Assembly (NCBI RefSeq): GCF_003143515.1
Contig: NZ_CP029343.1
Location: 496,001 to 560,000, forward strand
Reading direction: 5' to 3'
DNA: 64,000 nucleotides
Origin: Massilia oculi
GTDB lineage: Bacteria; Pseudomonadota; Gammaproteobacteria; Burkholderiales; Burkholderiaceae_D
The notes below the pieces were generated by a model. It made no database searches. It had not been told where the DNA came from and was given only the letters and a program-made list of their open reading frames with translations. The translations under genes and the position numbers were made by a program. Positions 714-63,097 of the stretch are shown one piece after another (within the stretch, counting starts at the first letter, position 1; each line of letters starts with the position of its first letter).

Positions 714-729
714 ATCCCCTCCACTCCCC

Positions 730-749: not shown

Positions 750-767
750 AAAGGCATCATATGAAAG

Positions 768-1166: not shown

Positions 1167-1181
1167 ATTTCCTCTCTCGTA

Positions 1182-1201
1182 GCCACGGCGGGGATTATTT
1201 T
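1182..1201. repeat. 20-bp intergenic repeat, copy 2
   Basis: This is the partner of 730-749 (18 of 20 identical). It overlaps the stop of the secreted-protein gene at 1201 and precedes the gene starting at 1166. Confidence 0.5.
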
Positions 1202-1695: not shown

Positions 1696-1724
1696 TCAAT
1701 TCCCCTAGTTGTACTTTGTTCTTA

Positions 1725-2396
1725 CTAGACCAGCTTTTGCTTTACTTCGGTGACCACGCCAATAACCACCAAAGTCTCTTGATCGCTTCGAAGTGTCGGG
1801 AAATCATCATTAAGCGGAACAAGCTCAAAAATCTCATTGCCATTTGCATCGATCCCGCGCGGCCGATATTTCTTGAACGTCGCCTGATTGCTGCCGTTGC
1901 GCGCCACAACAAAATTGCCGGGCCCAGGTGATCGATCAGGATCCACGAAAAGCCGGTCGCCAGGCTGAAAGCGCGGCGCCATCGACATCCCTTCCACGTC
2001 GAGACAGAAAGCCCAACGCGACAACTTCGGATCTTCCGTGTACTCGACTGCATAGCCATCACCCGGCTCATACGGGTTCTCCATGTCGCGCAGCGCACCG
2101 GCCTGCACCGACGAGATAACCGGTATAGGCCTAGACGCCAATCTGATCAACGACACGTTCTGATCAAATTGTTCAGTCGGCGGCTGCTCAGGCGACATCG
2201 GGCCCTTACCCGTCTCAAGCCAGAGCGCGCTGACGCCAAGAGCTGCAGCGAGCGACGCGAGGTTGGTCGTTCCCTGAGACTTGCCCACCTCAAGATCGGA
2301 AATGCTGCTCTGCTTGAGGTTCGACTTCTTCGCCAGCTCAATCTGAGTCAGCTTGGCCGCTTTCCGGGCCTGTTTAACGCGAGTTCCTATAGACAT
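1725..2396 (-). CDS. CI-type phage repressor (HTH plus S24 peptidase), 223 aa
   Basis: This is a lambda CI/LexA-like repressor. Residues 1-70 form a Cro/CI helix-turn-helix (TQIELAKKSNLKQSSISDLE). The C-terminal half is an S24 peptidase domain with the nucleophile Ser in a VEGMSMAPRFQPGD context and a Lys in ATFKKY. RecA-stimulated self-cleavage between the two domains is expected for the family. I start it at 2396 (MSIGTRVK) because the HTH begins there; an in-frame ATG at 2459 would add 21 residues lying across the operators. No ribosome binding site precedes 2396 and a weak -10 (GACAAT) lies just upstream, so the message may be leaderless, as lambda cI is when made from PRM. Confidence 0.9.
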   Translation of the reverse strand: MSIGTRVKQARKAAKLTQIELAKKSNLKQSSISDLEVGKSQGTTNLASLAAALGVSALWLETGKGPMSPEQPPTEQFDQNVSLIRLASRPIPVISSVQAGALRDMENPYEPGDGYAVEYTEDPKLSRWAFCLDVEGMSMAPRFQPGDRLFVDPDRSPGPGNFVVARNGSNQATFKKYRPRGIDANGNEIFELVPLNDDFPTLRSDQETLVVIGVVTEVKQKLV

Positions 2397-2457
2397 ACCG
2401 GTATTGTCATCTGGAACAAAACCGGAAAACCGGTTGACAGGGAATACCGGAGTTCCC
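2395..2457. promoter_or_regulatory. Immunity operators between cI and cro
   Basis: Four CCGG-centred sites lie in 63 bases. ATACCGGTAT (2395-2404) is a perfect palindrome on the cI start codon. Two close cores lie at 2422-2425 and 2430-2433, the second inside AACCGGTT. GGGAATACCGGAGTTCCC (2440-2457) is an imperfect 18-bp palindrome that fills the spacer of the rightward promoter. These are the expected binding sites for CI and Cro. The assignment is inferred from position and symmetry. Confidence 0.7.
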
Positions 2458-2462
2458 ATAAT
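2434..2462 (+). promoter_or_regulatory. Rightward early promoter (PR-like)
   Basis: TTGACA (2434-2439), a 17-base spacer and CATAAT (2457-2462) make a near-consensus sigma-70 promoter. The start would fall at about 2469-2470, on the ATG of the cro-like gene, giving a leaderless message. An 18-bp operator palindrome occupies the spacer, so repressor binding would block polymerase. Confidence 0.75.
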
Positions 2463-2469
2463 ACGTCTC

Positions 2470-2685
2470 ATGGACATCTCTTTCACGATCAAAAGCCTGC
2501 GCCAGGCCGGGCTCACCCAAACGCAGATCGGTAACGCGATTGGGCTGAGGCAAACCTCAATCAGCGACATGGAGTCCGGCAAGGCCGGCACGAAGCGTCC
2601 CTCATTCCAAGTGATCGACGGCTTGGCGCGACTGGCGAAGAAGCACAAGGTCGCGACCGAGCCGCCAGCACCCCAGCCGCAATAA
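2470..2685 (+). CDS. Cro-like transcription regulator, 71 aa
   Basis: A small HTH protein divergent from cI, with an XRE-type motif around residues 8-35 (LRQAGLTQTQIGNAIGLRQ) and a Pro/Ala-rich tail. By position and size it is the Cro counterpart that represses cI and opens the lytic programme. The ATG at 2470 was chosen because it coincides with the predicted start of transcription. A longer in-frame version from 2353 would run through the operator and repressor start, which is unlikely. Confidence 0.8.
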   Translation: MDISFTIKSLRQAGLTQTQIGNAIGLRQTSISDMESGKAGTKRPSFQVIDGLARLAKKHKVATEPPAPQPQ

Positions 2686-2775
2686 CCCGCGGCTTTTTCT
2701 TTCGGGCAGAAAGTTGCCTATGGGCTCCTGCCCAGCATCACCCACCCCGTAATCCGCATCACCAAGGAGAAGTAA

Positions 2776-3048
2776 ATGAAGAACCCGAGCCCGACCCTGA
2801 TCGAAGCAGCGCTGGCGAACTTAGACGATGGACCGCGCGACCAGATCATCCGAGTTCGTGCGACCCAGAAGCAGAAGGACATGTTCGCCAAATGTTCCGC
2901 TGCGAAGGGATTGCCAAGCGCTACCCATGCGCACCTGCTGCTCATGCGTGCTGTGAGTGCCCATGTTAGGCCGCGTCATCCGGTGCGTACAGGGGCCGGT
3001 CGTGGGCCAGTTGGCCGCGCGATGGCATCGGGCCGGAGGCACCTTTAA
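2776..3048 (+). CDS. Hypothetical early phage protein, 90 aa
   Basis: Family not recognised. An AAGGAG ribosome binding site precedes the ATG. The first 55 residues are mixed charge and helical. The last 35 are rich in Arg, Gly and His, which could bind nucleic acid. It is the first gene after the cro-like gene, in the position lambdoid phages use for CII-type regulators, but no HTH is evident. Confidence 0.5.
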   Translation: MKNPSPTLIEAALANLDDGPRDQIIRVRATQKQKDMFAKCSAAKGLPSATHAHLLLMRAVSAHVRPRHPVRTGAGRGPVGRAMASGRRHL

Positions 3049-3110
3049 TGGTTTCCGGCTTCGGTAAAAAAACAGCCCGGTGGGAGCCGGGCTTGGAAAG
3101 GATTGAAACA

Positions 3111-3311
3111 GTGAGCACATTATCACCCGAAACCCACGCGGCGACAAAGGTTATCGCCAAGGCGTGCAGCTGGGCCGACCAGCGGCGCATCGTTCGTGAT
3201 GCGGGCGCCGATCAGAAGGGTCGTGCAATCGGCCGCCTGGCCAAGAGCAGCAACGAGCTGGCCGAGGCCGTCGAGAAGTATCGCAAGGCGGGGAAGGCTG
3301 GCCAGCCATGA
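3111..3311 (+). CDS. Small early phage protein, 66 aa
   Basis: I start at GTG 3111, which has AAAGGA upstream; a longer in-frame start at 3048 would read through a CCCGG/CCGGG hairpin at about 3075-3092. The product is a helical, Lys/Arg- and Ala-rich protein with no recognised domain. It overlaps the next gene by four bases, indicating translational coupling in the early operon. Confidence 0.5.
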   Translation: MSTLSPETHAATKVIAKACSWADQRRIVRDAGADQKGRAIGRLAKSSNELAEAVEKYRKAGKAGQP

Positions 3312-3562
3312 CGCAGCTCGTCAGCATCCAGAAATGGCTCGGGCACCAGGGCGATACCATGTCGCCCGAGTCCCTCCAGTTCACCACCAGGCCGGCCAAG
3401 GGCTGCCGCGGCTGCCTGTTCCAGCATCAGCATTCCTCCATCTGCGATCGCGCCTGCACGGTCGCTCAGCGCGCCGAGCTCGAACACTGCGAGCGCGGCT
3501 TCATCTACGTCGCCAAGCCGGTAGACCCGCGCCAGGTGTCCCTGATCGAAAAGGGGCACTGA
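3308..3562 (+). CDS. Cysteine-containing early phage protein, 84 aa
   Basis: The protein holds a CRGC pair and three further Cys residues (about residues 33-61) plus a QHQH stretch, arranged like a small zinc-binding module. No named family is recognised. It overlaps the gene before it by ATGA and lies two bases before the replication gene, so it is part of the early transcript. Confidence 0.6.
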   Translation: MTQLVSIQKWLGHQGDTMSPESLQFTTRPAKGCRGCLFQHQHSSICDRACTVAQRAELEHCERGFIYVAKPVDPRQVSLIEKGH

Positions 3563-3563
3563 C

Positions 3564-4400
3564 ATGGCCGGCGAATGGATCAAATTCGAAGCGAACACCC
3601 CCGAGAAGCAAGAGGTCTTCACGATCACCGTTGCCATGGGCTGGGACGACCCTGACCTGACCGTTGGCAAGCTTCTGAAGGTATGGCGTTGGTTTGACCA
3701 ACAGACCGTGAATGGTAACGCTCCGCGCGTTACCGCAGCGTTAATGGATCGCATCATCGGCGTTACCGGCTTCGCACAAGCGATGTGCGATGTGGGCTGG
3801 CTGATCGCCGATGAGCATGGTATTTCGCTTCCAAACTTCGAGCGACACAACGGCCAGACCGCTAAAAACCGCGCGCTTACTGCGAAGCGCGTGGCGAAAC
3901 ACAAGGGAAACGCCAAGGATAACGATGAAGGTAACGCCGACAGCGTTACCGCAGCGTTACCTAAAGAAGAGAAGAGAAGAGAACAAAAGAAAGAACCAAG
4001 GTCAAAAGCAAAACCAGCGCCGGCTGCGCCGACGTTCGACCCTGGTGCTGAACTCGCTTCCCTGGCTGTCTCGCCTCAGATCGCTACCGACTGGCTTGCT
4101 CTCCGCAAGACCAAGCGTGCTGCGGTCACCCCCACCGCTCTGAAAAACATCATCGCTGAAGCTGGCAAAGCCGGTTTGTCGCTGGAAGCCGCCCTTTCGC
4201 TCTGCTGCACCAGGGGCTGGGCCGGGTTCGAGGCCGAATGGGTGCTGAAAGACCAGCGCGCCGGTCCAGCGCCGGCCTACCAGACCTCGAACGACAAAGC
4301 CAAAGCCTGGGCCGACAGCCTGACCGGAAAGAACCGAAGCCATGAACCTGACAACCGCATCATCGACCTCAACGACGCCCCTGCCCGCAAGCTGGGTTGA
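3564..4400 (+). CDS. Phage replication initiator, O-like, 278 aa
   Basis: The N-terminal 110 residues resemble the winged-helix replication proteins of lambdoid and Burkholderiales phages (DVGWLIADEHGISLPNFERH and an R/K-rich segment after NGQTAKNRAL). A charged linker follows, then a C-terminal helical domain with WAGFEAEWV. Such proteins bind origin iterons and recruit the helicase loader, here encoded by the next gene, which overlaps it by 59 bases. The gene itself contains a duplicated set of GCGTTACC octamers and a purine-rich tract, the arrangement lambda uses for ori inside O. Role inferred from architecture and context. Confidence 0.7.
   Translation: MAGEWIKFEANTPEKQEVFTITVAMGWDDPDLTVGKLLKVWRWFDQQTVNGNAPRVTAALMDRIIGVTGFAQAMCDVGWLIADEHGISLPNFERHNGQTAKNRALTAKRVAKHKGNAKDNDEGNADSVTAALPKEEKRREQKKEPRSKAKPAPAAPTFDPGAELASLAVSPQIATDWLALRKTKRAAVTPTALKNIIAEAGKAGLSLEAALSLCCTRGWAGFEAEWVLKDQRAGPAPAYQTSNDKAKAWADSLTGKNRSHEPDNRIIDLNDAPARKLG
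3714..3961. other. Candidate phage replication origin (iterons) inside the O-like gene
   Basis: The octamer GCGTTACC occurs at 3727, 3760, 3943 and 3954, its complement GGTAACGC at 3714 and 3930, and a shortened form at 3738. Inverted, direct and second direct copies have identical spacing in two modules (3714/3727/3738 and 3930/3943/3954: steps of 13 and 11). An A/G-rich, AT-richer stretch follows at about 3962-4015. Lambda ori has the same plan of iterons followed by a melting region. Confidence 0.6.
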
Positions 4401-5049
4401 GAAGCTGCTGCACAAGATGCTGCTCAGCTACGGCAAGAAGTTCACGGACCAGTGGGGCGCCACCAGCACCAACGAGCTGGTCGAGCATTGGGCCCAGGAA
4501 CTGGCCGGCTACCAGCCGATCGAGATCACGCGCGGCCTGAAGGCGCTCGAAACCCGCGACTGGCCACCGACTCTGCCCGAGTTCAAGAAGCTGTGCCGCG
4601 CACCGCTGGACCCGATGAAGACGTACTACGAGGCCGTGGCCGGCGTCCAGGCGCGAGCAGCCGGCGAGTATGGCAAGTGGTCCCACCCTGCCGTGTACTG
4701 GGCCGCCATGCCGCTGGCCTTCGACCTGGGCAACCAGACGTACAGCCAGATCAAGCCGCGCTGGGAGACGGCGCTGGCCGAGCAGATGGAGGCCGGCGAA
4801 TGGGCCGAGATTCCCCAGCCGATGCTGGCCCTGGCCGCGCCCGGCAAGTCCATGCCTACCCGCGAACAGGCCGAACAGATGCTACGCAAGCTCAAGGCGG
4901 CCACCGTCATCGCCAAGCCGAGCGACGGCCGTGACCACAATTCGTGGGCGAAAGCGATCCTGGCGCGCGCGGCTCGCGGCGACAAGACGCTGACGCTGAT
5001 CCAGGTGCAGTTCGCCCAGCAAGCCATGGGCGCCGAGGAGGCGCCATGA
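4342..5049 (+). CDS. Lambda P-like helicase loader, 235 aa
   Basis: The protein matches the replication protein P pattern: a short N-terminus, then LLSYGKKFTDQWG, an EHWAQELAGY segment, ITRGLKALETRDWPPTLPEF followed by a Cys, and a less conserved C-terminus. Family members load host DnaB at the phage origin by contacting the O-type initiator. It overlaps the initiator gene and is in turn overlapped by the next small gene, which supports coupled expression. Length is typical of the family. Confidence 0.75.
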   Translation: MNLTTASSTSTTPLPASWVEKLLHKMLLSYGKKFTDQWGATSTNELVEHWAQELAGYQPIEITRGLKALETRDWPPTLPEFKKLCRAPLDPMKTYYEAVAGVQARAAGEYGKWSHPAVYWAAMPLAFDLGNQTYSQIKPRWETALAEQMEAGEWAEIPQPMLALAAPGKSMPTREQAEQMLRKLKAATVIAKPSDGRDHNSWAKAILARAARGDKTLTLIQVQFAQQAMGAEEAP

Positions 5050-5204
5050 CCACCCACCAAGACACCCGCGCCACGTCGCGCCCTACCGCGCAGGAAATGG
5101 CGCTCATGGCCGCACGCGCCCAGCGCATCGCCGAATACCGCGCGCAGCTCGAGCTGATCGTGGCGCGCGGACTGGCACGCGAGATCGCGGAGGCGCAGCG
5201 ATGA
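5046..5204 (+). CDS. Small phage protein, 52 aa
   Basis: The ATG at 5046 overlaps the stop of the P-like gene (ATGAC) and its own stop overlaps the next gene. The product is an Ala- and Arg-rich helix with no recognised family. It is supported mainly by tight operon packing. Confidence 0.45.
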   Translation: MTTHQDTRATSRPTAQEMALMAARAQRIAEYRAQLELIVARGLAREIAEAQR

Positions 5205-5413
5205 GCGCCTACGACCCCTGCGCCATGTGTGAGCGCTTCACCCTGAACCGCGCCGACCTTCCGCCTGGCCACGGCTGGTGCACTGCCTGGGAGCGCGCCA
5301 CGCCCTGGAACGGCCAGATCGGCGTGCTGTTCAAGGAAGCGAAGGACCGGGCGCCGAGGGCGCGGTATGTGGCGCAGCAGCAGGCACAACAACAAGAATT
5401 GGAGAAAGCATGA
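5201..5413 (+). CDS. Small cysteine-containing phage protein, 70 aa
   Basis: The first half carries CAMC and a further Cys near residue 27, as in a small zinc-binding fold. The tail is a Gln-rich helix. It overlaps both neighbours by four bases. Function unknown; such short zinc-binding proteins are common in the nin-like regions of lambdoid phages. Confidence 0.55.
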   Translation: MSAYDPCAMCERFTLNRADLPPGHGWCTAWERATPWNGQIGVLFKEAKDRAPRARYVAQQQAQQQELEKA

Positions 5414-5757
5414 AATTACTTGTCTGCGGAGGGCGCGACTTCAAAAACGTTAGCCGAGTTCGCCACGTGCTGCACGCAATTCATGCAAAGCGCGCGGTCA
5501 CTCTGCTTATCGAGGGCGGCGCGGCGGGCGCGGATCGGCTGGCGCGTGAATGGGCGGTCGAGAACGGTATTCCGGTACAGACATTCCAAGCCGATTGGAA
5601 AGCGCATGGCAAGGCCGCCGGCCCGATCCGCAATGGCCGCATGATCAATGAGGGCAAGCCCGATGGGGTATGTGCGTTCCCCGGCGGCCGTGGCACCGCG
5701 AACATGGTCGAGCAGGCGCTAGAGGCCGGCATCAAAGTCATGGAGGTGGCCGCATGA
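5410..5757 (+). CDS. DUF2493 (SLOG-fold) protein, 115 aa
   Basis: The sequence fits the YspA/cpYpsA-related SLOG family: KLLVCGGRDF at the start, IEGGAAGADRLAREWA at about residues 35-50, ADWKAHGKAAGPIRNGRMI, then AFPGGRGTANMV. The glycine-rich loops form a nucleotide-binding Rossmann-like pocket. SLOG proteins sense or process nucleotide-derived ligands, but the role of the phage versions is not known. A GGAG ribosome binding site precedes the ATG at 5410 inside the end of the preceding gene. Confidence 0.88.
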   Translation: MKLLVCGGRDFKNVSRVRHVLHAIHAKRAVTLLIEGGAAGADRLAREWAVENGIPVQTFQADWKAHGKAAGPIRNGRMINEGKPDGVCAFPGGRGTANMVEQALEAGIKVMEVAA

Positions 5758-6422
5758 TCCGCACCTCTCCCATCGCCCGCACTGGCACCCTCAAGCGCAA
5801 GGCTCCGCTGCCGCGCGCTGCGGCGCCGGTGGTGGGCAAGCCGCGCACGAAGAAGTGCGGCAACCGCGCCTGCCGCGCGCCGTACGAGGTCGACGCCAAG
5901 CGCCCGTGGAAAAACTGGTGCAGCGACGACTGCGCTGTGGTCATCGCGGTGACGAAGCTCGACGCGCAGAAGGCCAAGCAGAAGCGCCAGGAGCGCGCGC
6001 AGGACAAGGCGAAGCTCGGCGGCATGAAGACGTACCCCCAGCTCATCGCGGACTGCCAGCGGGCGTTCAACGCGGTCGTGCGGCTCCGGGACATGCTGGC
6101 CGGCCACCGATGCATCTCGAGCGGCCGCACGCTGGACTGGACCGGCAACGCCGTTGATGCCGGCCACTATCGTTCGACCGGCTCGGCGCCGCACCTGCGC
6201 TTCAACTTCGACAACTGCCACGCGCAGTCCAAGCACGACAACCAGTACAAGGCCGGCAACGCCGTCGACTACCGCATCGGCCTGATCGATCGCATCGGCC
6301 TGACGCGCGTCGAGGCGCTGGAGGCCAACAACACTCCGGCGAAGTGGACGCATGACGACCTGCGCCGGATGACCAAAGAGTACCGCGCAATGCTGCGGGA
6401 TATGAAAAAGGAGACAGCGTGA
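5754..6422 (+). CDS. ninG: NinG/Rap-type recombination nuclease, 222 aa
   Basis: This is a NinG family protein. Lambda Rap cuts Holliday junctions and branched intermediates during phage recombination. Visible features are a Lys/Arg-rich N-terminus, a cysteine pair region (CGNRACRAPYEV then WCSDDC), a long charged helix at about residues 65-90 and the C-terminal core with HCISSGR-like RCISSGRTLDW, DAGHYRSTGSAPHLRF and HAQSKHDN. The start at 5754 overlaps the previous stop. It sits where lambdoid phages keep nin genes. Confidence 0.85.
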   Translation: MIRTSPIARTGTLKRKAPLPRAAAPVVGKPRTKKCGNRACRAPYEVDAKRPWKNWCSDDCAVVIAVTKLDAQKAKQKRQERAQDKAKLGGMKTYPQLIADCQRAFNAVVRLRDMLAGHRCISSGRTLDWTGNAVDAGHYRSTGSAPHLRFNFDNCHAQSKHDNQYKAGNAVDYRIGLIDRIGLTRVEALEANNTPAKWTHDDLRRMTKEYRAMLRDMKKETA

Positions 6423-6706
6423 TTTCAACTCTCATCGCCTGGGCCAAGTCGCTAATGCCGAAGCCAGTCAACCCGGAGGCAATGCGGCGACGCTATGCCT
6501 ACGGCGGCCCGAATCGCCGGGCGCTCGCCAACTGGATCGACCACAACATGCCCGAGCTCGGCGCCGAATTGGACCCGATGACAAAAAACCAAGTGCGCAT
6601 TCGCCTGAACGAGATCACAGGCTGCAACGTGCCGGCCGCGGGCCGCGTCGAGGATGGCTGTGCCGTGTTCCTGGCCGCGCTGAAGAAGATGAAGGAGGCA
6701 TCGTGA
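6419..6706 (+). CDS. Hypothetical phage protein, 95 aa
   Basis: It starts at a GTG overlapping the ninG stop. The sequence has a basic N-terminal helix and a compact helical core, with no family that I can name. Operon position between ninG and two winged-helix genes suggests an early regulatory or recombination accessory role, which is speculative. Confidence 0.5.
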   Translation: MISTLIAWAKSLMPKPVNPEAMRRRYAYGGPNRRALANWIDHNMPELGAELDPMTKNQVRIRLNEITGCNVPAAGRVEDGCAVFLAALKKMKEAS

Positions 6707-7146
6707 TCGAGAACCACACCTTCACCACGCCAAAGGCCCAGGCAAGGATCGCCCGGATCCTCGCCGCGCTCGAGCAGCAGCCGATGACCCGCGACGAACT
6801 GCAATGCCTGCTGGGCATCGCCAAGCCGACCATGCGCCGCTACATCGCATTCCTGACCACAGCACAGCGTCAGATCCATGTCCGGCGCTGGAAGCGCACC
6901 ACGGGCCAGCTCGCGCCTGTGTACGCCGTCGGCAGCCGCAAGGACGCCCCGCAACCGCGCATCGCCACCCGTGCCGAGCGCAACCAGCTCGAATGGCAGC
7001 GCATCAAGGCTGACCCGGACCGCCACGATCGGGTCAAGGCCGCCGCCCGCGTCTACGGCCGCATCAAGCGCGTGCGCCAGACACCGCAGCCCTGGTTCGC
7101 TGCACTGCTCAACACCCGCACCATTGAAAGGAAGTCCGCGCCATGA
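6703..7146 (+). CDS. HTH-containing phage protein, 147 aa
   Basis: Residues 15-60 form a predicted winged helix (RILAALEQQPMTRDEL, then LGIAKPTMRRYIAFL), the usual DNA-reading fold. The remainder is Arg-rich. It overlaps both neighbouring genes by four bases. No specific family is recognised; a DNA-binding regulator of the early-to-late switch is a reasonable guess. Confidence 0.6.
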   Translation: MIENHTFTTPKAQARIARILAALEQQPMTRDELQCLLGIAKPTMRRYIAFLTTAQRQIHVRRWKRTTGQLAPVYAVGSRKDAPQPRIATRAERNQLEWQRIKADPDRHDRVKAAARVYGRIKRVRQTPQPWFAALLNTRTIERKSAP

Positions 7147-50656: not shown

Positions 50657-52042
50657 TTATCGCTGGTATGCGCCCAGGTCGATGCTGCTGCCACGCGCCT
50701 TGCCGTCGATGTCGGTCTTCGGCGCGTAGGTGGCGAGGCCGCGGCCGATCGCTGGCGAGCTGGTCGACAGCTTGTAGTCCGGGGTTGCCGCGGTGCGCGA
50801 GTAACCGGCGAACAGCGGTTCCGAGCTGATGGTGCCCGTATGGGTCAGGCCGTTACGCAGCCGGAAGTTGTAGGTCGTGTTCTTGGTGACCAGGTTGTTT
50901 TTATACGTGTTGCCCTTGCCGGTGGTCCCTTGCTCCGAGATGCCGTACTTGTTGTCGTAGACGATGTTGTTGTGCACGTGGACGTTGTTGGCGCCTGCCC
51001 TCGTGAAGTAGAAGTCGCCACCGCCGACGATGATGCCGAACACCGACGAGCTCACCGTGTTGTTGACGATCTGCAGGTCGGTCGCATCGTGCCACAGGTG
51101 GATCGCCGCCGAGCCCACGCGGTAGACGATGTTGTTCTTGATCGTGCCCGAAGTGCTGTGATAGATGCCCTGGACGTAGGTGCAGCCGGCCGGGCCGATA
51201 TCGTGCACGACGTTGCCGATCACATCGCCCTTGACGCCCTTGTAATAGCTGTCGACGCCGATCGCCGAGCCGCCGGCGCTATTGCACGGGATGGTCGTCG
51301 CCATGTGGTGCACGCGGTTGCCCTCGATGACGTTGTACGAACCGCCGGTGTAGATCCCGAGCACCCATTTGGTGCCGGTGCCGATCTTGCTGCCGTCGAC
51401 GTCGAAACCGATGATGCTGACGTAGTTGCCCCGGTTGTCCCAGGCGGTCTTGTTGGTCGAATTGGCAGGTGGCACGATCTTGGCGCCCCACTTGGTGGTC
51501 GACACCCAGTAGATGCGGTTGCTTGCCGTACCGCTGGCGGTGGTCCTGATGCCGCCGGCATAGGTGCCCGGCGCCACGAACACGGTCGTGCCGGCCTTGG
51601 TTGCTGCTTTGGCGGCGCGTGCCAGCGTCTTGAACGGCGCGGCCTTGGTGCCGGCGGCGCTGTCCGAACCGTTCGGCGAGACGTAGTAGTTGTACGGCGT
51701 GGCCGGGATCGTGCTCGGGCCGGCGACAGGGCCTGGATGACGCTTGGTGTACTCGGCGCTGCGCTTGATCTCCGCTTCGACGCTCACGAGACTGACGCCG
51801 CGGCTCATTGCCTGGGTCCAGTACTGCAGGCCGCCCGCATCCGGCTCACGGCCGAGAAGGGTCAGGTACAGCTGACGCACTTGTTCCTGGGCCGAGGCAG
51901 CGGCAGTGGCGGCTGGCGCCGCACTTTGCGGGGCTGTAGCGGCGTGGACCGATGCGGTAGCGGCCAGCAGCAAGGTTGCTGCGGCGGCGACACGGGTCAT
52001 ATTGGTGCGGAGGTGCGAGGCGATCATGGTGCTGCTTTTCAT
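50657..52042 (-). CDS. Secreted right-handed beta-helix protein with DUF4214 domain, 461 aa
   Basis: Signal peptide at residues 1-34, a DUF4214 domain at about 50-97 (VRQLYLTLLGREPDAGGLQY), then a right-handed parallel beta-helix of the pectate lyase/DUF1565 type: NYYVSPNGSDSAAGTKAAPF, coils with repeated NNxV patterns (IEGNRVHHM, IKNNIVYRV, IVNNTVSSS, VHNNIVYDN). Such proteins bind or cut polysaccharides; no catalytic residues can be assigned. From about residue 110 on it is nearly identical to the next gene, 1646 bases away. Confidence 0.8.
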   Translation of the reverse strand: MKSSTMIASHLRTNMTRVAAAATLLLAATASVHAATAPQSAAPAATAAASAQEQVRQLYLTLLGREPDAGGLQYWTQAMSRGVSLVSVEAEIKRSAEYTKRHPGPVAGPSTIPATPYNYYVSPNGSDSAAGTKAAPFKTLARAAKAATKAGTTVFVAPGTYAGGIRTTASGTASNRIYWVSTTKWGAKIVPPANSTNKTAWDNRGNYVSIIGFDVDGSKIGTGTKWVLGIYTGGSYNVIEGNRVHHMATTIPCNSAGGSAIGVDSYYKGVKGDVIGNVVHDIGPAGCTYVQGIYHSTSGTIKNNIVYRVGSAAIHLWHDATDLQIVNNTVSSSVFGIIVGGGDFYFTRAGANNVHVHNNIVYDNKYGISEQGTTGKGNTYKNNLVTKNTTYNFRLRNGLTHTGTISSEPLFAGYSRTAATPDYKLSTSSPAIGRGLATYAPKTDIDGKARGSSIDLGAYQR

Positions 52043-52302
52043 CTAAGGGTTTCCTTCTAGTCCGGAAAAATGACCGGGCAACGGAGGGGCCACGCACAGG
52101 GCGCGACTGTCCACGCGAGGCGTGGGCTTCTCCTGATGTGTCGGAGCGGACGGGGCGCAGGCGCCCGTCCACGAGATCTGCCAGCTGGCGCTGGCGCGGG
52201 TGACGCCGGACAAAGCTGGCCGGGGCTGGCTTCGGTCCGGGTCGGTACTGCCGGGGTGCTGCTGGGTAGTGCCGGGTGCTGCTGGGTGGTGCTGAGTGCT
52301 GC

Positions 52303-53457
52303 TTAGCGCTGGTAAGCGCCGAGATCGATGGCGGTGCCGCGTGCCTTGCCGTCGATGTCGGTCTTCGGCGCGTAGGTGGCGAGACCGCGGCCGATCGCTG
52401 GCGAGCTGGTCGACAGCTTGTAATTCGGCATTGCGGCGGTGCGCGAGTAACCGGCGAACAGCGGTTCCGAGCTGATGGTGCCCGTATGGGTCAGGCCGTT
52501 ACGCAGCCGGAAGTTGTAGGTCGTGTTCCTGGTGACCAGGTTGTTTTTATACGTGTTGCCCTTGCCGGTGGTCCCTTGTTCCGAGATGCCGTACTTGTTG
52601 TCGTAGACGATGTTGTTGTGCACGTGGACGTTGTTGGCGCCTGCCTTCGTGAAGTAGAAGTCGCCGCCGCCGACGATGATGCCGAACACAGACGAGCTCA
52701 CCGTGTTGTTGACGATCTGCAGGTCGGTCGCATCGTGCCACAGGTGGATCGCCGCCGAGCCCACGCGGTAGACGATGTTGTTCTTGATCGTGCCCGAAGT
52801 GCTGTGATAGATGCCCTGGACGTAGGTGCAGCCGGCCGGGCCGATATCGTGCACGACGTTGCCGATCACATCGCCCTTGACGCCCTTGTAATAGCTGTCG
52901 ACGCCGATCGCCGAGCCGCCGGCGCTATTGCACGGGATGGTCGTCGCCATGTGGTGCACGCGATTGCCCTCGATGACGTTGTACGAACCGCCGGTGTAGA
53001 TGCCGAGCACCCATTTGGTGCCGGTGCCGATCTTGCTGCCGTCGACGTCGAAACCGATGATGCTGACGTAGTTGCCCCGGTTGTCCCAGGCGGTCTTGTT
53101 GGTCGAATTGGCAGGTGGCACGATCTTGGCGCCCCACTTGGTGGTCGACACCCAGTAGATGCGGTTGCTTGCCGTACCGCTGGCGGTCGTCCTGATACCG
53201 CCGGCATAGGTGCCCGGCGCAACGAACACAGTCGTGCCGGCCTTGGTTGCTGCTTTGGCGGCGCGTGCCAGCGTCTTGAATGGTGCGGCCTTGGTGCCGG
53301 CGGCGGTGTCCGAGCCGGTTGGCGAGACGTAGAAATTGTTCGGGGTGGTCGGGATCGTTGCGGCGTTGGCCGACATGGCGGCGGCTAGCAAAGCGACAGC
53401 GGCAGCGGCGTGGGTGACGTTGGTACGGATCGAAGCGAAGGTGGCGAAGGTCTGCAT
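52303..53457 (-). CDS. Secreted right-handed beta-helix protein, near copy of its neighbour, 384 aa
   Basis: A signal peptide (residues 1-33), then at once the beta-helix beginning NFYVSPTGSDTAAGTKAAPF. It lacks the DUF4214 domain. From about residue 50 to the end it is almost identical to the protein at 50657-52042, also at the DNA level, with only scattered changes. So the pair arose by recent duplication or is kept alike by gene conversion, with different N-termini. Confidence 0.8.
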   Translation of the reverse strand: MQTFATFASIRTNVTHAAAAVALLAAAMSANAATIPTTPNNFYVSPTGSDTAAGTKAAPFKTLARAAKAATKAGTTVFVAPGTYAGGIRTTASGTASNRIYWVSTTKWGAKIVPPANSTNKTAWDNRGNYVSIIGFDVDGSKIGTGTKWVLGIYTGGSYNVIEGNRVHHMATTIPCNSAGGSAIGVDSYYKGVKGDVIGNVVHDIGPAGCTYVQGIYHSTSGTIKNNIVYRVGSAAIHLWHDATDLQIVNNTVSSSVFGIIVGGGDFYFTKAGANNVHVHNNIVYDNKYGISEQGTTGKGNTYKNNLVTRNTTYNFRLRNGLTHTGTISSEPLFAGYSRTAAMPNYKLSTSSPAIGRGLATYAPKTDIDGKARGTAIDLGAYQR

Positions 53458-55823: not shown

Positions 55824-56960
55824 TCAGGCCGGCACCAGGCGCACCAGCGTGATTTCCGACGGCGCGCCGAAGCGCTTCGGCGGTCCCCAGTAGCCTGTGC
55901 CGCGGCTGGTATAAACCCACATATCGCGTACGCGGTTCAGACCGGCAACAAAAGGCTGCTGCAACGGTACGAATAAATTCCATGGGAAGAACTGGCCGCC
56001 GTGGGTGTGGCCCGATAATTGCAAGTCGAAGCCGGCCTTTGCCGCTTCGGGCGCGCTGCGCGGCTGGTGGGCCAGCAGCACCTTCACGCCGACCCCGGGC
56101 GGCGCGCCATGGACGGCGCGCTGCGGGTCGCTCTTGTGCTCGGGGTGGAAGTGATGGGCCGTGTAATCGGCCACGCCGGCAATCATGAGGGCGGCATTGC
56201 CGCGCCGGCGCACCACGTGCTCGTTCATGAGCACCGTCAGGCCCAGGCGGCGCACCTCGGCGATCCACTCCAGCGCGCCGGAATAGTATTCGTGGTTGCC
56301 GGTGACAAAGAACACGCCGTCGCTCGCCTTCAGGCGCGCCAGCGGTTCGGTATGCATGGCCAGGCGCTGCACGCTGCCATCGACCAGGTCGCCGGTGACG
56401 GCGATGGCGTCGGCGCCGAGCTTGTTGACCTTGTTGACGATGGCGTTCAGGTAGGGCCGCTTGATGGTCGGGCCGACGTGGATGTCCGAGATCTGGGCGA
56501 TGGCGTAGCCGTGCAGCTCGGCCGGCAAGTCCCGGATCGGCACGTCGACCTTCACCACCCGCGCTACCCGCCGCGCGTTGACGTAGCCGACCACGGTCAC
56601 GGCCAGCGCCACCAGCGGCACGGCCAGTGCACTGCCGTAGCCGATCGCCGGCGTCAACGCGCCGAAAGGCAGCAGCGCCAGCAGGACCAGGTCGCGCAGC
56701 AAGGTAATCACCAGCAGCGACGAGAACAGACCCATCGACAGCAAGCCTAGCCAGGCAACCAGGTTCGACCAGCGCCGCCGGCGCAGCGAGGACGACATCA
56801 GGCCGACCGGCACCAGCGCGCCGAGCAGGCCCAGCAGGACGACGGAGAAGGCATTGCCGGCCAGGCCCAGCCCGAGATCGGGCAGCAGGCGCATGCCGAT
56901 ATAGACAAGCAGCAAGACCAGCAGGGAGAGGACGACGACGAAGCTACGGCTCGGGCGCAT
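55824..56960 (-). CDS. Membrane metallophosphoesterase, 378 aa
   Basis: Start taken at ATG 56960. Four or five transmembrane helices fill residues 8-130. The C-terminal domain has the calcineurin-like metal motifs in order: QISDIHVGP, TGDLVDG, VTGNHEYYSG, LLAHQPR and LSGHTHGGQFFP. It is similar to YaeI-type phosphodiesterases. The active domain probably faces the periplasm. Substrate unknown. Confidence 0.88.
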   Translation of the reverse strand: MRPSRSFVVVLSLLVLLLVYIGMRLLPDLGLGLAGNAFSVVLLGLLGALVPVGLMSSSLRRRRWSNLVAWLGLLSMGLFSSLLVITLLRDLVLLALLPFGALTPAIGYGSALAVPLVALAVTVVGYVNARRVARVVKVDVPIRDLPAELHGYAIAQISDIHVGPTIKRPYLNAIVNKVNKLGADAIAVTGDLVDGSVQRLAMHTEPLARLKASDGVFFVTGNHEYYSGALEWIAEVRRLGLTVLMNEHVVRRRGNAALMIAGVADYTAHHFHPEHKSDPQRAVHGAPPGVGVKVLLAHQPRSAPEAAKAGFDLQLSGHTHGGQFFPWNLFVPLQQPFVAGLNRVRDMWVYTSRGTGYWGPPKRFGAPSEITLVRLVPA

Positions 56961-57155
56961 GGTGATGATCGAATGACGGTGGTTGTTCCTAGATGGGGCG
57001 CCTGCCGCTGCTTGCAAGGCGGAATGTTACCGGCTGAGAAGCAGTTGTAAAAAACTGTATTAACGAAAGGCACAATCCGGCGTCGGGAATATAGTACGTC
57101 CATACCCGGTGTCGCAGTCATCATCCCGATCTCCGCCAGGGTAAAAGGAAAGACC

Positions 57156-57677
57156 ATGTTGAAATCGACAACCCTTGGTGCTGTGCTGCTGGCCGCTGTC
57201 GCGGTATCGCCGGCGGCAATGGCCGGTGATCGTGGTACGAACACGGCCGTTGGCGCGGTGCTCGGCGCCGTCGTCGGCCACACGGTCGGCGGCACCGGCG
57301 GCGCCGTCGCCGGCGGCGTGATCGGCGCGGCGGTGGGCAACTCCATCAAGACCCGCGACGACCGCCGTCATTACGGCCACCACAATGGCTACAACAACGG
57401 CTACAACAACGGCTACTACCAGTCGCAACCGGTGTACGTGCAGCCGCGCCCCGTGTATGTGCAACCGCGTCCGGTCTACGTGCAGCCACGCCCGGTGTAT
57501 GTGGAATCCCGTCCGGTCTATGTCCAGCCCCGTCCGGTGTACGTGCAACCGCGCCCGGTCTACATCGACAATCGCGGCCGCGGCTGGGACCGGCATGATC
57601 GCCATGACCGTCGGGATCGCCACGACCGCTGGGATCGCGACGACCGCCGAGGTCATCACTACGGCCACGGCCGCTGA
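57156..57677 (+). CDS. Glycine-zipper envelope protein with YVQPRPV repeats, 173 aa
   Basis: Signal peptide (residues 1-24), then a glycine-zipper segment (VGAVLGAVVGHTVGGTGG then AVAGGVIGAAVGN) that probably inserts in a membrane. An Asn/Tyr/Gly stretch follows, then seven copies of a YVQPRPV-like heptad, and a tail of alternating Arg, Asp and His that could bind metal or anionic surfaces. AAAGGAAAG precedes the ATG. Proteins with such a zipper occur in the outer envelope; the repeat tail is not of a kind I can name. Confidence 0.75.
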   Translation: MLKSTTLGAVLLAAVAVSPAAMAGDRGTNTAVGAVLGAVVGHTVGGTGGAVAGGVIGAAVGNSIKTRDDRRHYGHHNGYNNGYNNGYYQSQPVYVQPRPVYVQPRPVYVQPRPVYVESRPVYVQPRPVYVQPRPVYIDNRGRGWDRHDRHDRRDRHDRWDRDDRRGHHYGHGR

Positions 57678-57775: not shown

Positions 57776-58738
57776 ATGTACGAAGCAGGCACCGTCGTTT
57801 CGCTGGCCGGCGGCCAGTATCGCTTGCGCGAGGCGCTGGCCGGATCGGCCTATGGCGTCGTGTGGCGCGCCGACAGCCTGCAGGCCAACGGTTGCGTGGC
57901 CCTCAAGCTGGTCAACCTGGAACAGATGGAACGCGCCCCAACCGGCCTGCGCGCACGCTGGCTGGCCAGCGCCAGCACCGAGATCGCCTTCCTGCGCGGC
58001 CTGGCGCCGTGGGATGGCCGCCACATCGTGCGCCTGCTCGACAGCGGCGAGCACGCCGGCATGCCGGCGATGGCGCTCGAGCTGCTCGACGGCGACCTGG
58101 CCGGCCACCTGACCCGCGAGATGGCGCTGGGGCGCACGATCGCCCCTGCCCGCGCGCTGGCCTGGATCGGCCAGGTCAGCCAGGCGCTGGCCAAGGTGCA
58201 CGCCAGCGGCTGGCGCTATCTCGACCTCAAACCGGGCAACCTGCTGCTGGACGGCGCGAACGACAGCGTCAAGCTGGCCGATTTCGGCACCAACCGCCGC
58301 CTCGACGACCTGCGCGCGCACACCTATGCCGGCACCGCCAACTGGCAAGCCCCGGAACAGTTCTTCCCCGACGCCAACGGCTACGCCACCGAGGCGCGCA
58401 CCGATTATTTCGCCCTTGGCGCCCTGCTCTACTACCTGGTCTGCGGGCGCCTGCTGCGCTACAGCAGCGCCTGCGGCCAGGCCTGGCAGGCGCACGGGCG
58501 CGACGCGGCGGCCAGCCTGCTGGCCGAGCGCCAGGCCCGGCCAGCTGTACTACAACCGGACGAAGCGGCGCTGTTCGCCAGCCGACTGGGCCCGGCCGCC
58601 GCGCCCGGCCTTGCGCTGCTGCGCGCGCTGGTGGCCGAGCGTCCCGCCGATCGTCCGAGCCATGCGCTGGACATCAGCCGCGGCCTGGCGGACATCGTCT
58701 CCGCCCTGAATGCCGAACCGCTGCGGAGCGCGGCATGA
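57776..58738 (+). CDS. Ser/Thr protein kinase (Hanks type, non-RD), 320 aa
   Basis: A complete eukaryote-like kinase domain without membrane segment. The ATP Lys is in VALKL (residue 44), the helix C Glu at about 69, the catalytic loop is YLDLKPGN (Asp 150, Asn 155) and the metal motif is ADFG (169-171), followed by TANWQAPEQ. The Arg before the catalytic Asp is replaced by Leu, so it is a non-RD kinase that may not need activation-loop phosphorylation. It overlaps the SEDS gene by ATGA; the proteins with FHA-like domains encoded next are its likely partners. Confidence 0.88.
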   Translation: MYEAGTVVSLAGGQYRLREALAGSAYGVVWRADSLQANGCVALKLVNLEQMERAPTGLRARWLASASTEIAFLRGLAPWDGRHIVRLLDSGEHAGMPAMALELLDGDLAGHLTREMALGRTIAPARALAWIGQVSQALAKVHASGWRYLDLKPGNLLLDGANDSVKLADFGTNRRLDDLRAHTYAGTANWQAPEQFFPDANGYATEARTDYFALGALLYYLVCGRLLRYSSACGQAWQAHGRDAAASLLAERQARPAVLQPDEAALFASRLGPAAAPGLALLRALVAERPADRPSHALDISRGLADIVSALNAEPLRSAA

Positions 58739-61074
58739 GGCGCCTATCCCTCGGCGCCACCCTGGCCGCGACCCTGCTCGCGCTGCTGTGCGCCGTGCAG
58801 CTGCTGGCCTTGATGAGGGCGCCGGCCGCCTGGACGCCGGCCGGGATCGCAGTGACCCTCGCCCCCGGAGAATCGGCCATGCTGGGCCGCCAGGAACTGG
58901 GCGCGCCGCGCGCGGCGCCGCGCCAGGTGGTGCTGCGCCGCGACCGTGACGGCGACTGGCTGCTGCGCAACGCCGAACCGCAGCAAGCCGTCGTGCTGCG
59001 CCGGGGCGATGCGCGCCAGCGCAGCAGCGACCTGCCGCTCGCGGCCGGCCAGCGCATCCAGGCCGGCGCGCGGCGATTGCAGGTGGTCTCCGCCGAAGCG
59101 GGACGCGTCACCCTGCACGATGGCGAGCAGACCTGGACCTACGACGGCGCCACCGTGCTGCGCGACGGCCAGCCCCAGCCGGCCTGTCCCGACGCCGGCC
59201 TGTCGGCGCGCGCGGTAGCGGCCTGGAACCGCTGGCTGCCGCAAGGAGCGAGCCTGGCCCGTCCCCTGAGCCTCGGCGGTCTGCTCTACTGCGGCAACCG
59301 CATCGCCGCCGCCGCGATCGAACCCGGCGACGCCCTGCTGCTGCGCCAGGAGGACGGTCGCATCGCCCTGTCGGCGCGCGGCGCCCAGCCGGTGCTGGTC
59401 TCGCAGGGCGCCGGCTGGATCGACGCCGCCCAGCGCGAGCTGCCGCTGGCGGACGTGGACGGCTTCGCCGTCGGCCGCACCCTGTTCACCATCGCGCGGG
59501 ATGGCGCTACCTTGCTCCTGTCGCCGTCGCGCCAGGTCGCGCTGTCGGCGTCGCCCGCGAATCAGTTGCCGGCCACGGTGAGCTGGCGCTGGGAGCAACG
59601 CGACCATCTCGCCCTGCCCGCGCCGCCGTCGCTGGCCTGGGCCGCCGCCTGCCTCGTCCTGATGATGGGACTCGCCTGCATCGCGCCATCGCTGCGCCAG
59701 CGCAGGGGATATTCGGCGCTCGTGCGCCCCTTCGCAGCAAGCCTGCTGGCCGCCAGCGCCATGCTGTTGCTGGTGACCCAGCGCACCGTCGGCGCACCCG
59801 GCGCTGCCATCTCCCTGCTGCTGGCATGGGCCACGCTCTGGCTCACCCTGCTGTATCCGCGCCGCGCCTCGCTGCTGGCATCCAGCGCCGTGCTGCTGCT
59901 CGGCGCCGGCCTGCTGGTGCAGCTCGAGATGGGGCTGGGGGCGAGCGACACGGCCTGGCTGCGCCACTTCCAGAACACGACCGCGCTGCTGGGGCTTGGC
60001 CTGCCCGGCGCCCTGCTGTTGCTGTCGTGTTTCGCCCGCGGCGCCGTGTCGCGCCCGGTCACCGAACGCGTGCTGCTGGTATGCGCCGCGCTCGCGCTGG
60101 GCGGCTTGCTGCTGCAGGTGTGCTTCGGCGGCGAAACCGGCGTGTTCGACATCCAGCCCTTCGAATTCGCCAAGTTCGCCCTGGCCGCGTTGAGCGCCCA
60201 CTGCCTGGCGCTGGCCGCCGGCGGGGCCGCGCACGAGCGGCGCGACTGGCGCTTCTGGCTGCGGATGGCTGCGCCGGTGCTGCTGTTCGTGTTCCTGCTC
60301 GCCGCGGCCCTGGTGCGGGTCGACGATTATTCTCCGCTGCTGCTGCTGCTGGTCTGGAGCGGCGCCATGCTGCTGGCCTGGTGCGCGAGTCACGGGCGGC
60401 GCGCGGCGCTGGCCTCGGTCCTCGTGGCCGCAGCCCTGCTGGCGGCGGGCGGCGTGACGATGCGCGCCGGCGGCGACCTGCTCGGCGCCTTCGGCTTCTA
60501 TCCCGAGCGCTTCCAGGTCTGGAGCGAGCCGGCCATTCACCCTCACACCGGCCAGCAGATGCTGCAGGGCAGCCGCGCCATCGTGCAGGGCGGCTGGCTG
60601 GGCGCCGACCAGTTGCTCGGCCTGGCGGCGCTGGGCGGCGCGGCCGGCGAGGCCCTGTCCATTCCCGCGATCCAGGACGACTTCGCCCCCTCCTTCCTGC
60701 TGCACCGCCATGGGCTGGCGGCGGGCCTGGCCTTGTGGAGCCTGCAAGCGCTGTTCCTGGCGGCGCTGCTGCGCGCCGCCGCCGGCGCCTGGCGCTGCTC
60801 GAACGAGGCCAAGGACTTCCGGCGCGCCTGGAGCGGCCGCTTCCAGTGCTTCGCCCTGTGCGGCGGCGCGGCCTTCGTCGCCGGCCACCTGCTGCTGTCG
60901 TGGGGCACCAACCTCGCCATGTTCCCGATCATGGGCCAGCCCATGAGCTTCCTGTCCGCGGGCGGCTCGCACCTGCTGTTTTTCATCTGCCCCCTGCTAG
61001 CGTTCGGCATGGCGAGCACCCAATTCAACGAGGAGAGTCAATCATGCCGGTCTATGTCCAACACGAAGTCCTAG
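58735..61074 (+). CDS. SEDS-family (FtsW/RodA-like) protein with FHA-like N-terminal domain, 779 aa
   Basis: One transmembrane helix (residues 7-27), a region of about 110 residues with an FHA-like pattern (GESAMLGRQELG, GQRIQAGARRLQVV), a further extracytoplasmic-looking domain to about 285, then some ten transmembrane helices. The SEDS signature is present: PFEFAKFALAAL, GSRAIVQGGWLG, IPAIQDDF with the acidic residues at 648-649 where RodA has its catalytic Asp, and MFPIMGQPMSFLSAGGS at the end. SEDS proteins polymerise lipid II with a class B penicillin-binding protein, but none is encoded here. Twice the usual length because of the N-terminal part. Confidence 0.82.
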   Translation: MRRLSLGATLAATLLALLCAVQLLALMRAPAAWTPAGIAVTLAPGESAMLGRQELGAPRAAPRQVVLRRDRDGDWLLRNAEPQQAVVLRRGDARQRSSDLPLAAGQRIQAGARRLQVVSAEAGRVTLHDGEQTWTYDGATVLRDGQPQPACPDAGLSARAVAAWNRWLPQGASLARPLSLGGLLYCGNRIAAAAIEPGDALLLRQEDGRIALSARGAQPVLVSQGAGWIDAAQRELPLADVDGFAVGRTLFTIARDGATLLLSPSRQVALSASPANQLPATVSWRWEQRDHLALPAPPSLAWAAACLVLMMGLACIAPSLRQRRGYSALVRPFAASLLAASAMLLLVTQRTVGAPGAAISLLLAWATLWLTLLYPRRASLLASSAVLLLGAGLLVQLEMGLGASDTAWLRHFQNTTALLGLGLPGALLLLSCFARGAVSRPVTERVLLVCAALALGGLLLQVCFGGETGVFDIQPFEFAKFALAALSAHCLALAAGGAAHERRDWRFWLRMAAPVLLFVFLLAAALVRVDDYSPLLLLLVWSGAMLLAWCASHGRRAALASVLVAAALLAAGGVTMRAGGDLLGAFGFYPERFQVWSEPAIHPHTGQQMLQGSRAIVQGGWLGADQLLGLAALGGAAGEALSIPAIQDDFAPSFLLHRHGLAAGLALWSLQALFLAALLRAAAGAWRCSNEAKDFRRAWSGRFQCFALCGGAAFVAGHLLLSWGTNLAMFPIMGQPMSFLSAGGSHLLFFICPLLAFGMASTQFNEESQSCRSMSNTKS

Positions 61075-62627
61075 GCAAGGTCCAGGATGTGTTCAACGCC
61101 GACGCCCTGTGGCAGGCGCCTGGCCTCGCGCTGTTCTCGCGCCGTCCGCTGCTGCGCGACCTGCTCGAGCGCTCGCCGCGCGAGCAGCGCGGCCGCGCGG
61201 CCACCCGCTGCTTCTCGCACGTAACCCTGGTGCTGCCGCAGGACGAGGTCGACGACGACCGTCACCTGACCCGCGGCGCGCGCGTGCGCGACCTGGCGCA
61301 ATCGCTGGCCGCCCTGCACCAGAAAGATTTCGGCGACCTGCTCGGCGGCGACGAAGTACGCTACCACGTGCTGGGCAGCGACGACCTCGATCCGGGCGAA
61401 GTGCAGGTCAAGTTCGGCCACGCCGTCTACCTGCCGGCGCCGGGCGAGCAAGTCCAGTACACGGTGACCGCCTCGCGCGACAGCGCGATCTGGCAGCCGG
61501 TCTGCGCCATCTATCCGAACCAGCGCCTGACCCTGGTCGGCCTGGACGGCGCCAACGCCACCTTCGCGGTGCCCGGCTGGCCGTTCGGCCCGGAAGGCGG
61601 GCTGCTGCTGGTAAACGACGGCGCAGGCGCCCCGCTCGAACTGCAGGTGCGTCCGAAGGACAGTTTCGAATGCCGCTTCGATGCCGCCAACGGCTACTAC
61701 GTCCTGCGCGGCAAGGGCGCCAGCGCCCAGCGCCTGCTCCTGAAAATCAGCCGCGTCGGCGCCAGCGCGGGCGCCGCCGTCCGTCCGCAGCCTGCGCCGA
61801 CGTCCAGCGCCGCACCCGCCACACCAAGCGCGCAGCCTCAGCGCAGCCCGGCGGTATGGAAGTCGCGCACCACCACGCCGCTGGCCGCCGACATGACCGC
61901 GATGCCGCTGGCCGCTCCGAGCCCGGCGACTAAACCGACGCCAACGACCGAGCTCGATGCGACCTACGCCCCGGTTGCGCGCCACCGCATCACACTGGCC
62001 GCGCTGGCCCTGCCGCGCCTGAGCCGCTACCGTGAGACCGGCGCCCAGGAACTCGAGGTCGGCCTGAACGCCCAGCTGCTGCCCGGTGCGCCGGGCAAGG
62101 ACAGCGTCATCCGCTTCGCGGTCGACGATGCCGACGAGCTGCACGCAATCACTCCGGCCGGCCGCCAGCGCATCGCCGCGCCGTCGCAGTTCGCGCCGCT
62201 CGACAACGCCAGCATCCGCCTGCTTGCGGTCCAGCAGCAGCTGGCCGAGCGCTACCGCGCGCTGCTGGTGCTGCCGGAAGGCCCGTCGCAGCCTGCGGCA
62301 GCGGGCACGCGCCTGACCTTCGGGCGCGGCATGCCGTCGCTGGGCGCGCTGCGCGTGCTCGACACGCCGCAATTCGTGCGTCAGGGTGACGGCGCCCCGG
62401 CCGCCAGCGCCGACCGTCTTGGCCTGTCGCGCAACGCCTTCAGCTGGGAAGCCTCCAGCGAAGGCCTGCGTATCGCGCGCCTGTCGCCTACCCAGGCGCT
62501 GTACCACCTCGACGAGCATTTGGCCCTGGTGGCCCAGATCGAGAGCGCGACCCAGGATCAACCCTATGTGATCCCGCCTGGCCATCACCTGGTGGCCGGA
62601 CACTACGTGCTGCGTTTCGACGCTTGA
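61044..62627 (+). CDS. Soluble protein with FHA-like C-terminal domain, 527 aa
   Basis: No signal peptide. Residues 1-240 form a domain of unknown family (VYVQHEVLGKVQDVFNADAL, DLLGGDEVRYHVLGSDDLDP). A Pro/Ala/Thr linker (about 245-300) precedes a second region, and the last 110 residues have an FHA-like arrangement of strands (TRLTFGRGMPSLGALRVLD, DRLGLSRNAFSW, PPGHHLVAGHYVLRF). FHA domains read phosphothreonine, which fits a kinase in the same operon. It starts 31 bases inside the SEDS gene. Confidence 0.6.
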   Translation: MPVYVQHEVLGKVQDVFNADALWQAPGLALFSRRPLLRDLLERSPREQRGRAATRCFSHVTLVLPQDEVDDDRHLTRGARVRDLAQSLAALHQKDFGDLLGGDEVRYHVLGSDDLDPGEVQVKFGHAVYLPAPGEQVQYTVTASRDSAIWQPVCAIYPNQRLTLVGLDGANATFAVPGWPFGPEGGLLLVNDGAGAPLELQVRPKDSFECRFDAANGYYVLRGKGASAQRLLLKISRVGASAGAAVRPQPAPTSSAAPATPSAQPQRSPAVWKSRTTTPLAADMTAMPLAAPSPATKPTPTTELDATYAPVARHRITLAALALPRLSRYRETGAQELEVGLNAQLLPGAPGKDSVIRFAVDDADELHAITPAGRQRIAAPSQFAPLDNASIRLLAVQQQLAERYRALLVLPEGPSQPAAAGTRLTFGRGMPSLGALRVLDTPQFVRQGDGAPAASADRLGLSRNAFSWEASSEGLRIARLSPTQALYHLDEHLALVAQIESATQDQPYVIPPGHHLVAGHYVLRFDA

Positions 62628-62632
62628 CGACG

Positions 62633-63097
62633 ATGGTCACCTGGACTCACGCGGCCGCCTACGCGGTGGCTTTGGTGCTGACCTTGTGTGCCTGCGCCTG
62701 GCTCACGCCGCGCGCCTGGTGGCGGCGGCCGAATGCGCGCGCGCTCGGCGTGCTCGGAGTCGGGACCGCGGTTGGCGGGACGCTGTTGCTGGCCGTGTCC
62801 GGGACTTCGGCGCCGGCCCTGGAGCCGGTGCAGTCGGCACAGGCGCGGGAGGTGGCAGGCATCGATCTGCCGGTCGCCGGTGCCCGCTACCGCGTGCACG
62901 ATGCGCTCAACCTGCGTGTGGCGGGCGGCGTCGGCGCTGAACGGCTGCTGGTGGTGCCGGCCGGCGCGCGGGTGGAAGCGACCGGCTTGCGCGAAGGCGA
63001 CTGGTGGCAGGTGCGTGCGACGGTCGATGGCAAGGCGGTCGAGGGCTGGGCCAGCAGCCTGTGGCTGCGGCGGGCAGGCGAAGGACCCGGTGTCTGA
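62633..63097 (+). CDS. Membrane-anchored SH3-type protein, 154 aa
   Basis: Two N-terminal transmembrane helices (about residues 5-22 and 36-55), then a bacterial SH3 domain (RYRVHDALNLRVAGG, RVEATGLREGDWWQVRA, VEGWASSLWL) facing the periplasm. SH3 domains of this type often bind cell-wall peptides. It follows the FHA-like gene by five bases and completes the kinase-SEDS unit. Confidence 0.75.
   Translation: MVTWTHAAAYAVALVLTLCACAWLTPRAWWRRPNARALGVLGVGTAVGGTLLLAVSGTSAPALEPVQSAQAREVAGIDLPVAGARYRVHDALNLRVAGGVGAERLLVVPAGARVEATGLREGDWWQVRATVDGKAVEGWASSLWLRRAGEGPGV

Follow-up and report, generated by a model that had tools for sequence, protein, structure and literature searches.

A kinase–SEDS–FHA–SH3 operon of Massilia oculi and its candidate role in an auxiliary SEDS–PBP peptidoglycan synthase

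Control of cell wall synthesis by Ser/Thr phosphorylation has been studied mainly in Gram-positive and mycobacterial species. The best match among described gene sets is the actinobacterial fhaA-fhaB-pstP-rodA-pbpA-pknA-pknB locus, in which, according to PMC6554272, a Ser/Thr kinase, a PP2C phosphatase, a SEDS protein, a penicillin-binding protein (PBP) and FHA proteins are linked. Here we describe an operon of the proteobacterium Massilia oculi that lies at 57776..63097 of a 64,000-nucleotide stretch of DNA (contig NZ_CP029343.1, positions 496,001 to 560,000; hereafter the window) and encodes a kinase, a SEDS protein, an FHA-ended protein and an SH3 protein. We propose, with a probability of about 0.6, that it provides the polymerase, and the regulatory side, of an auxiliary SEDS–PBP peptidoglycan synthase under the control of kinase, phosphatase and FHA protein. 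An earlier note on the window had regarded such a module as undescribed, and a literature search over the titles and opening lines of open-licence PMC papers likewise found no description of the gene set in Proteobacteria.

The four genes all lie on the plus strand. The first encodes a Hanks-type Ser/Thr kinase of 320 amino acids (57776..58738; Pfam Pkinase, 101.1 bits) and overlaps by 4 bases the gene of a SEDS-like integral membrane protein of 779 amino acids (58735..61074). This in turn overlaps by 31 bases the gene of P0003, a cytoplasmic protein of 527 amino acids with an FHA end in its predicted model (61044..62627), and a gap of 5 bases separates the latter from the gene of an SH3 membrane protein of 154 amino acids (62633..63097; Pfam SH3_3, 30.2 bits). 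Sequence and Pfam scan bear out the coordinates and spacings given in the earlier note; its four-gene extent describes these genes correctly but falls short of the whole module, which has PP2C-like, second FHA and PBP genes beyond them. Compared with the relative L045, dN/dS is 0.24 for the kinase, 0.27 for the SEDS, 0.14 for the FHA and 0.24 for the SH3 gene, and the four genes therefore evolve as proteins (the FHA value of 0.49 against L054 was left out because of a frame break in that locus).

The module has the full set of components listed above for the actinobacterial locus. The PP2C-like gene is found 7 kb past the SH3 gene (at 566.5 kb of the genome, outside the window) and is present downstream in 75 of the 80 loci kept from a scan of named genomes, in 29 of these at most 150 bases from the SH3 match; the PBP gene lies 19 kb past the SH3 gene, again outside the window, and falls within the downstream stretch of 12 of 18 within-family relatives. 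The actinobacterial locus has a PASTA membrane kinase, whereas the Massilia kinase contains no hydrophobic segment over threshold, thus no membrane segment, and matched only kinase families, not PASTA, in Pfam; the module works like the actinobacterial pknB-pstP-rodA-pbpA-fha locus but, by this difference, is not a member of it. It is further set apart by the outer domain on its SEDS protein, by its SH3 protein, by a second kinase that carries an FGE domain, by an FHA protein whose N-terminal part has no Pfam match, and by its proteobacterial host.

The SEDS protein and its co-inherited PBP

With the synthase pairs RodA-PBP2 and FtsW-FtsI the Massilia module shares the SEDS fold, the catalytic-site residues and a co-occurring PBP. 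The SEDS protein has 14 predicted membrane helices and scores 56.5 bits against PF01098 (FTSW_RODA_SPOVE, residues 469-751), above the gathering cut-off of 26.4. Its predicted model (pLDDT 80.8, pTM 0.81) contains the ten-helix SEDS fold (residues 373-770, 59851..61044) with the catalytic Asp in a long outer loop, and the earlier note's FtsW/RodA-like assignment at 58735-61074 thus stands. Alignment with the RodA and FtsW of the same genome places Asp649 (codon 60679..60681) at the catalytic D262 of RodA; it is invariant in 26 of 26 aligned sequences, and conservation is likewise complete (26/26) for six residues at the catalytic site of the SEDS core.

The protein departs from RodA and FtsW in four added N-terminal helices and in a beta-rich domain placed outside the membrane (residues 33-288, 58831..59598), tentatively FHA-like, whose cysteines C151 and C186 are invariant (26/26); the module further differs from these pairs in the size of its PBP (about 1,000 residues) and in the linked kinase and FHA genes. 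RodA and FtsW of the same genome reach about 345 bits against PF01098, compared with 57 for the operon protein, and since the latter misses the NCBIfam equivalog cut-offs (ftsW 46.2 of 337.5 bits, rodA 41 of 336.7) it is, judged by sequence, an orthologue of neither. The SEDS-like protein might instead use a different lipid-linked glycan, in the manner of an O-antigen ligase or a surface-polysaccharide polymerase, and the operon would then regulate envelope polysaccharide, not peptidoglycan; we consider this unlikely. The genome holds a fourth, weak match to PF01098 (26.5 bits, cut-off 26.4) at C1:395845-396177, in an open reading frame (ORF) of 439 amino acids.

The PBP of M. oculi (C1:578141-581275, 1,044 residues) was found through the PBP of G829, a genome from another family of the same order, to which it is 37.7% identical over 1,025 residues. 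The three transpeptidase motifs, SxxK, SxN and KTG, occur in 13 of 13 sequences of the PBP family. Profiles of both proteins were run against 80 genomes, namely the 61 of the genus and 19 more that were picked because they have or lack the FHA gene; SEDS was found in 74 and PBP in 75 (E<=0.001). Excluding weak PBP matches in G108 (27 bits) and G436 (43 bits), 73 genomes have both, six have neither (G006, G039, G101, G105, G108, G567), one has SEDS alone (G436) and none has PBP alone. The FHA gene occurs without SEDS and PBP in G039, G101 and G567, and the clearest joint absence of SEDS and PBP is that of G039 (Massilia terrae), where the rest of the locus is present on both sides. No SEDS remnant was found before the FHA gene of G567 (ORFs of at least 60 residues, frame 1 of the first 663 bases, genome search). 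In G1068, from another class, the gene of a 943-residue PBP-profile protein (94.8 bits, hhalign 99.4%) overlaps by 17 bases that of a 1,106-residue SEDS-profile protein (70.7 bits overall; 54 and 22 bits for stretches of the core, 6 bits for one in the outer domain), while the 499-residue protein before this pair does not match the FHA profile. A PF00905 tandem at 1.12 Mb (C1:1122095-1124345) was considered as a source of spare PBPs and dropped on its beta-lactamase/BlaR-type look; by eye it comprises a metallo-beta-lactamase-like and class D-like fusion and an adjoining BlaR-like protein.

The synthase half is the best supported part of our proposal, drawing on structure, residues and co-occurrence. 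The SEDS protein would polymerise lipid II in the membrane and the co-inherited PBP would cross-link the strands; gene content, gene order, folds, catalytic residues, SEDS–PBP co-occurrence and one clear joint absence are computed results, whereas we infer the substrate (lipid II), the formation of a complex, whether and in which direction phosphorylation acts, and when the module is used. A number of observations weigh against the proposal. Gly465 replaces Trp102 of RodA loop PL2 in 26 of 26 SEDS sequences; in PMC10449877 this Trp is invariant across the species analysed, and Ala in its place lowered RodA activity. The PBP gene is kilobases away, in a convergent block, in M. oculi and most relatives. 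G436 has SEDS and FHA, but its PBP match is a single stretch of 43 bits, and neither a kinase nor an SH3 gene is linked; G043 has a whole SEDS and a PBP split into two distant pieces (C1:5589706-5591397 and 6001376-6002791, about 410 kb apart, as after rearrangement); PBP matches also come in two pieces in G202 and G030, and several module genes of G038 have broken frames. The 80 genomes form a selected, non-random set that lacks phylogenetic independence. Finally, G039 and G101 retain kinase, FHA and SH3 genes without SEDS and PBP, and these signalling genes therefore have, or can take, other targets.

This persistence, the Gly, the large outer domain and the SH3 protein would also suit a module that senses peptidoglycan and does not make it, its SEDS and PBP being inactive relatives that act as wall sensors for the kinase circuit; the conservation of six SEDS catalytic-site residues and of three transpeptidase motifs, needless in sensors, renders this improbable. 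A bolder form of the synthase proposal, which we regard as possible but somewhat doubtful, is that of a third dedicated Gram-negative peptidoglycan synthase, made of a SEDS protein with an FHA-like outer domain and a roughly 1,000-residue PBP of its own, switched by kinase, PP2C and FHA, of separate origin or transferred between phyla, and used for some specialised purpose in the wall, for instance envelope repair or the needs of a differentiated surface. In either form of the proposal, a SEDS–PBP pair would be added to RodA-PBP2 and FtsW-FtsI in Gram-negatives, and its extra outer domain and its lack of a Trp reported as invariant would bear on the mechanism of SEDS enzymes.

The kinase, FHA and SH3 proteins

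The kinase has the catalytic Lys, Glu, Asp and Asn and the DFG Asp of the Hanks type, with K44, E69, D150, N155 and D169 kept in 22 of 22 relatives; its HRD motif reads YLD or HLD, the Arg being replaced by Leu. P0003 consists of an N-terminal domain of no matched fold, a disordered linker (241-310) and a C-terminal FHA fold (309-527, 61968..62624; conserved GR at 427-428 and SR at 462-463) in a predicted model of pLDDT 81.3, which agrees with the FHA-like end proposed in the earlier note. Neither Pfam, its FHA family included, nor NCBIfam matches the protein at E<=1, and within residues 1-237 Pfam sees no FhaA-type domain at that threshold. Arg, Ser, His and Asn are the usual ligand residues of FHA domains. 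R428 and S462 are kept in 28 of 28 sequences, whereas the position that we take to be that of the His is Ala in 26 of 28, and position 484, presumably near that of the Asn, is Gln in 26 and Met in two; in these positions and in the missing Pfam match P0003 differs from phosphothreonine-binding FHA domains such as that of mycobacterial FhaA (3oun). The SH3 protein has hydrophobic segments at 4-26 and 37-58.

From gene content and by analogy with the actinobacterial locus, as described in PMC6554272, a circuit can be envisaged in which the cytoplasmic kinase and the PP2C-like phosphatase would set how far the kinase itself, or the synthase in its cytoplasmic parts, is phosphorylated. The FHA-ended protein would read this state and dock or switch the synthase, while the outer domain of the SEDS protein, together with the SH3 protein, would relay the condition of the wall from the periplasm. 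The departures from the usual FHA ligand residues limit this half of the proposal, as does the PP2C label of the M. oculi protein, which scores below cut-offs (Pfam 15 of 24 bits, NCBIfam 35 of 230). The earlier note had spoken of a phospho-regulated peptidoglycan or envelope module. Its envelope part has gained from the co-occurring PBP transpeptidase, the joint absence in M. terrae, the PBP/SEDS gene overlap in one distant genome, the linked PP2C-like gene and a lytic transglycosylase gene beside the FHA gene in one relative; the word phospho-regulated still draws on gene content. As a conserved and compact version in environmental betaproteobacteria, the locus would make phospho-gating of a SEDS–PBP synthase testable in easy hosts, with the natural absence in M. 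terrae as a guide.

Kinase, PP2C and FHA also make up the phosphorylation set of type VI secretion systems (T6SS). The genome contains a T6SS sheath gene, and the operon's kinase is hit by PADLOC models of kinases, most strongly by PD-T4-6 (112 bits), so a part in T6SS regulation or anti-phage defence was tested. The sheath gene is 1.09 Mb off and thus unlinked, no T6SS family appeared among the scanned proteins, and of the ten proteins run through PADLOC only one besides the kinase gave a trace match (15.7 bits), the other eight none. P0003, moreover, occurs in 60 of 61 genomes of the genus, unlike a defence island. Both readings were set aside as highly improbable.

Distribution and gene surroundings

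The distribution was derived from genome samples and one contig scan. A single-sequence search with P0003 matched 60 of 101 genomes, all from its own genus, where the sole miss is G006 (83% complete), and none of 40 genomes of other genera; with an alignment as query, 68 of 294 family genomes matched, and these belong to 6 of 44 genera. Beyond the family, three of 369 genomes matched in the class sample (M. oculi, G436, G567), five of 300 in the order sample (M. oculi, three of its genus, G829) and, among 378 of the phylum, M. oculi, G012 and, at 58 bits, G1068, with at most 2-4 candidates scored per genome. The scan of named genomes found 115 relatives; the 80 kept are titled Massilia, Telluria, Duganella, Pseudoduganella, Rugamonas, Janthinobacterium or Oxalobacteraceae, and 74 of them have the kinase-SEDS-FHA-SH3 order intact. 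The exceptions are L093, L096, L117, L155 and L157, which end at a contig edge, and L122 (M. terrae JCM 31606), which lacks SEDS. Conservation of the order, by which the earlier note had wished to be judged, thus reaches far beyond one strain. SEDS is also present in 38 loci of another set, which comprised 40 from within the family, 20 each from the genus and from other genera; the spacings most common in the 38 are the 4-base kinase–SEDS overlap (21) and the 31-base SEDS–FHA overlap (13), as counted with script-chosen start codons.

In relatives the operon is followed by the PP2C-like gene, the second FHA protein and a convergent block with, at its end, the PBP of about 1,000 residues. In M. 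oculi the second FHA protein scores 23.9 bits against PF00498 (cut-off 20.7), and the convergent block consists of FGE domain, second kinase, zinc-ribbon protein (by eye), five unnamed proteins and the PBP. In the 18 downstream stretches compared, PBP was not in those of G291, G043, G101, G039, G241 and G299; PP2C was in 15, the others being G305, G202 and G101. G829 has a kinase-SEDS-FHA-lytic transglycosylase block (SLT and LysM), the last gene adjoining that of the FHA protein, and, running divergently from its kinase gene, the gene of a 1,054-residue PF00905 protein. Near its SEDS–PBP cluster (612-6717) are small coiled-coil-like, AAA+-like (by eye), PP2C-like and caspase/FGE genes, the PP2C-like label being given by eye and by a match to the M. 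oculi gene at 566.5 kb.

In M. oculi the second kinase is encoded in one frame and its FGE domain in another that overlaps it (C1:569598-571918). The zinc-ribbon and five unnamed proteins (C1:571872-578048) keep company with the PBP block in relatives, and the five of these six that were scanned had no Pfam or NCBIfam match over curated cut-offs. Upstream of the operon, the window contains a metallophosphoesterase gene (55824-57017, minus strand) and a PXPV-repeat/glycine-zipper gene (57156-57677, plus strand); a PXPV-like neighbour is found in 36 of the 40 within-family loci. Further away, two adjoining minus-strand ORFs of 461 and 384 amino acids (50657-52042 and 52303-53457), near-identical by eye over most of their length, look like a tandem duplicate (50657-53457) of a secreted-looking protein.
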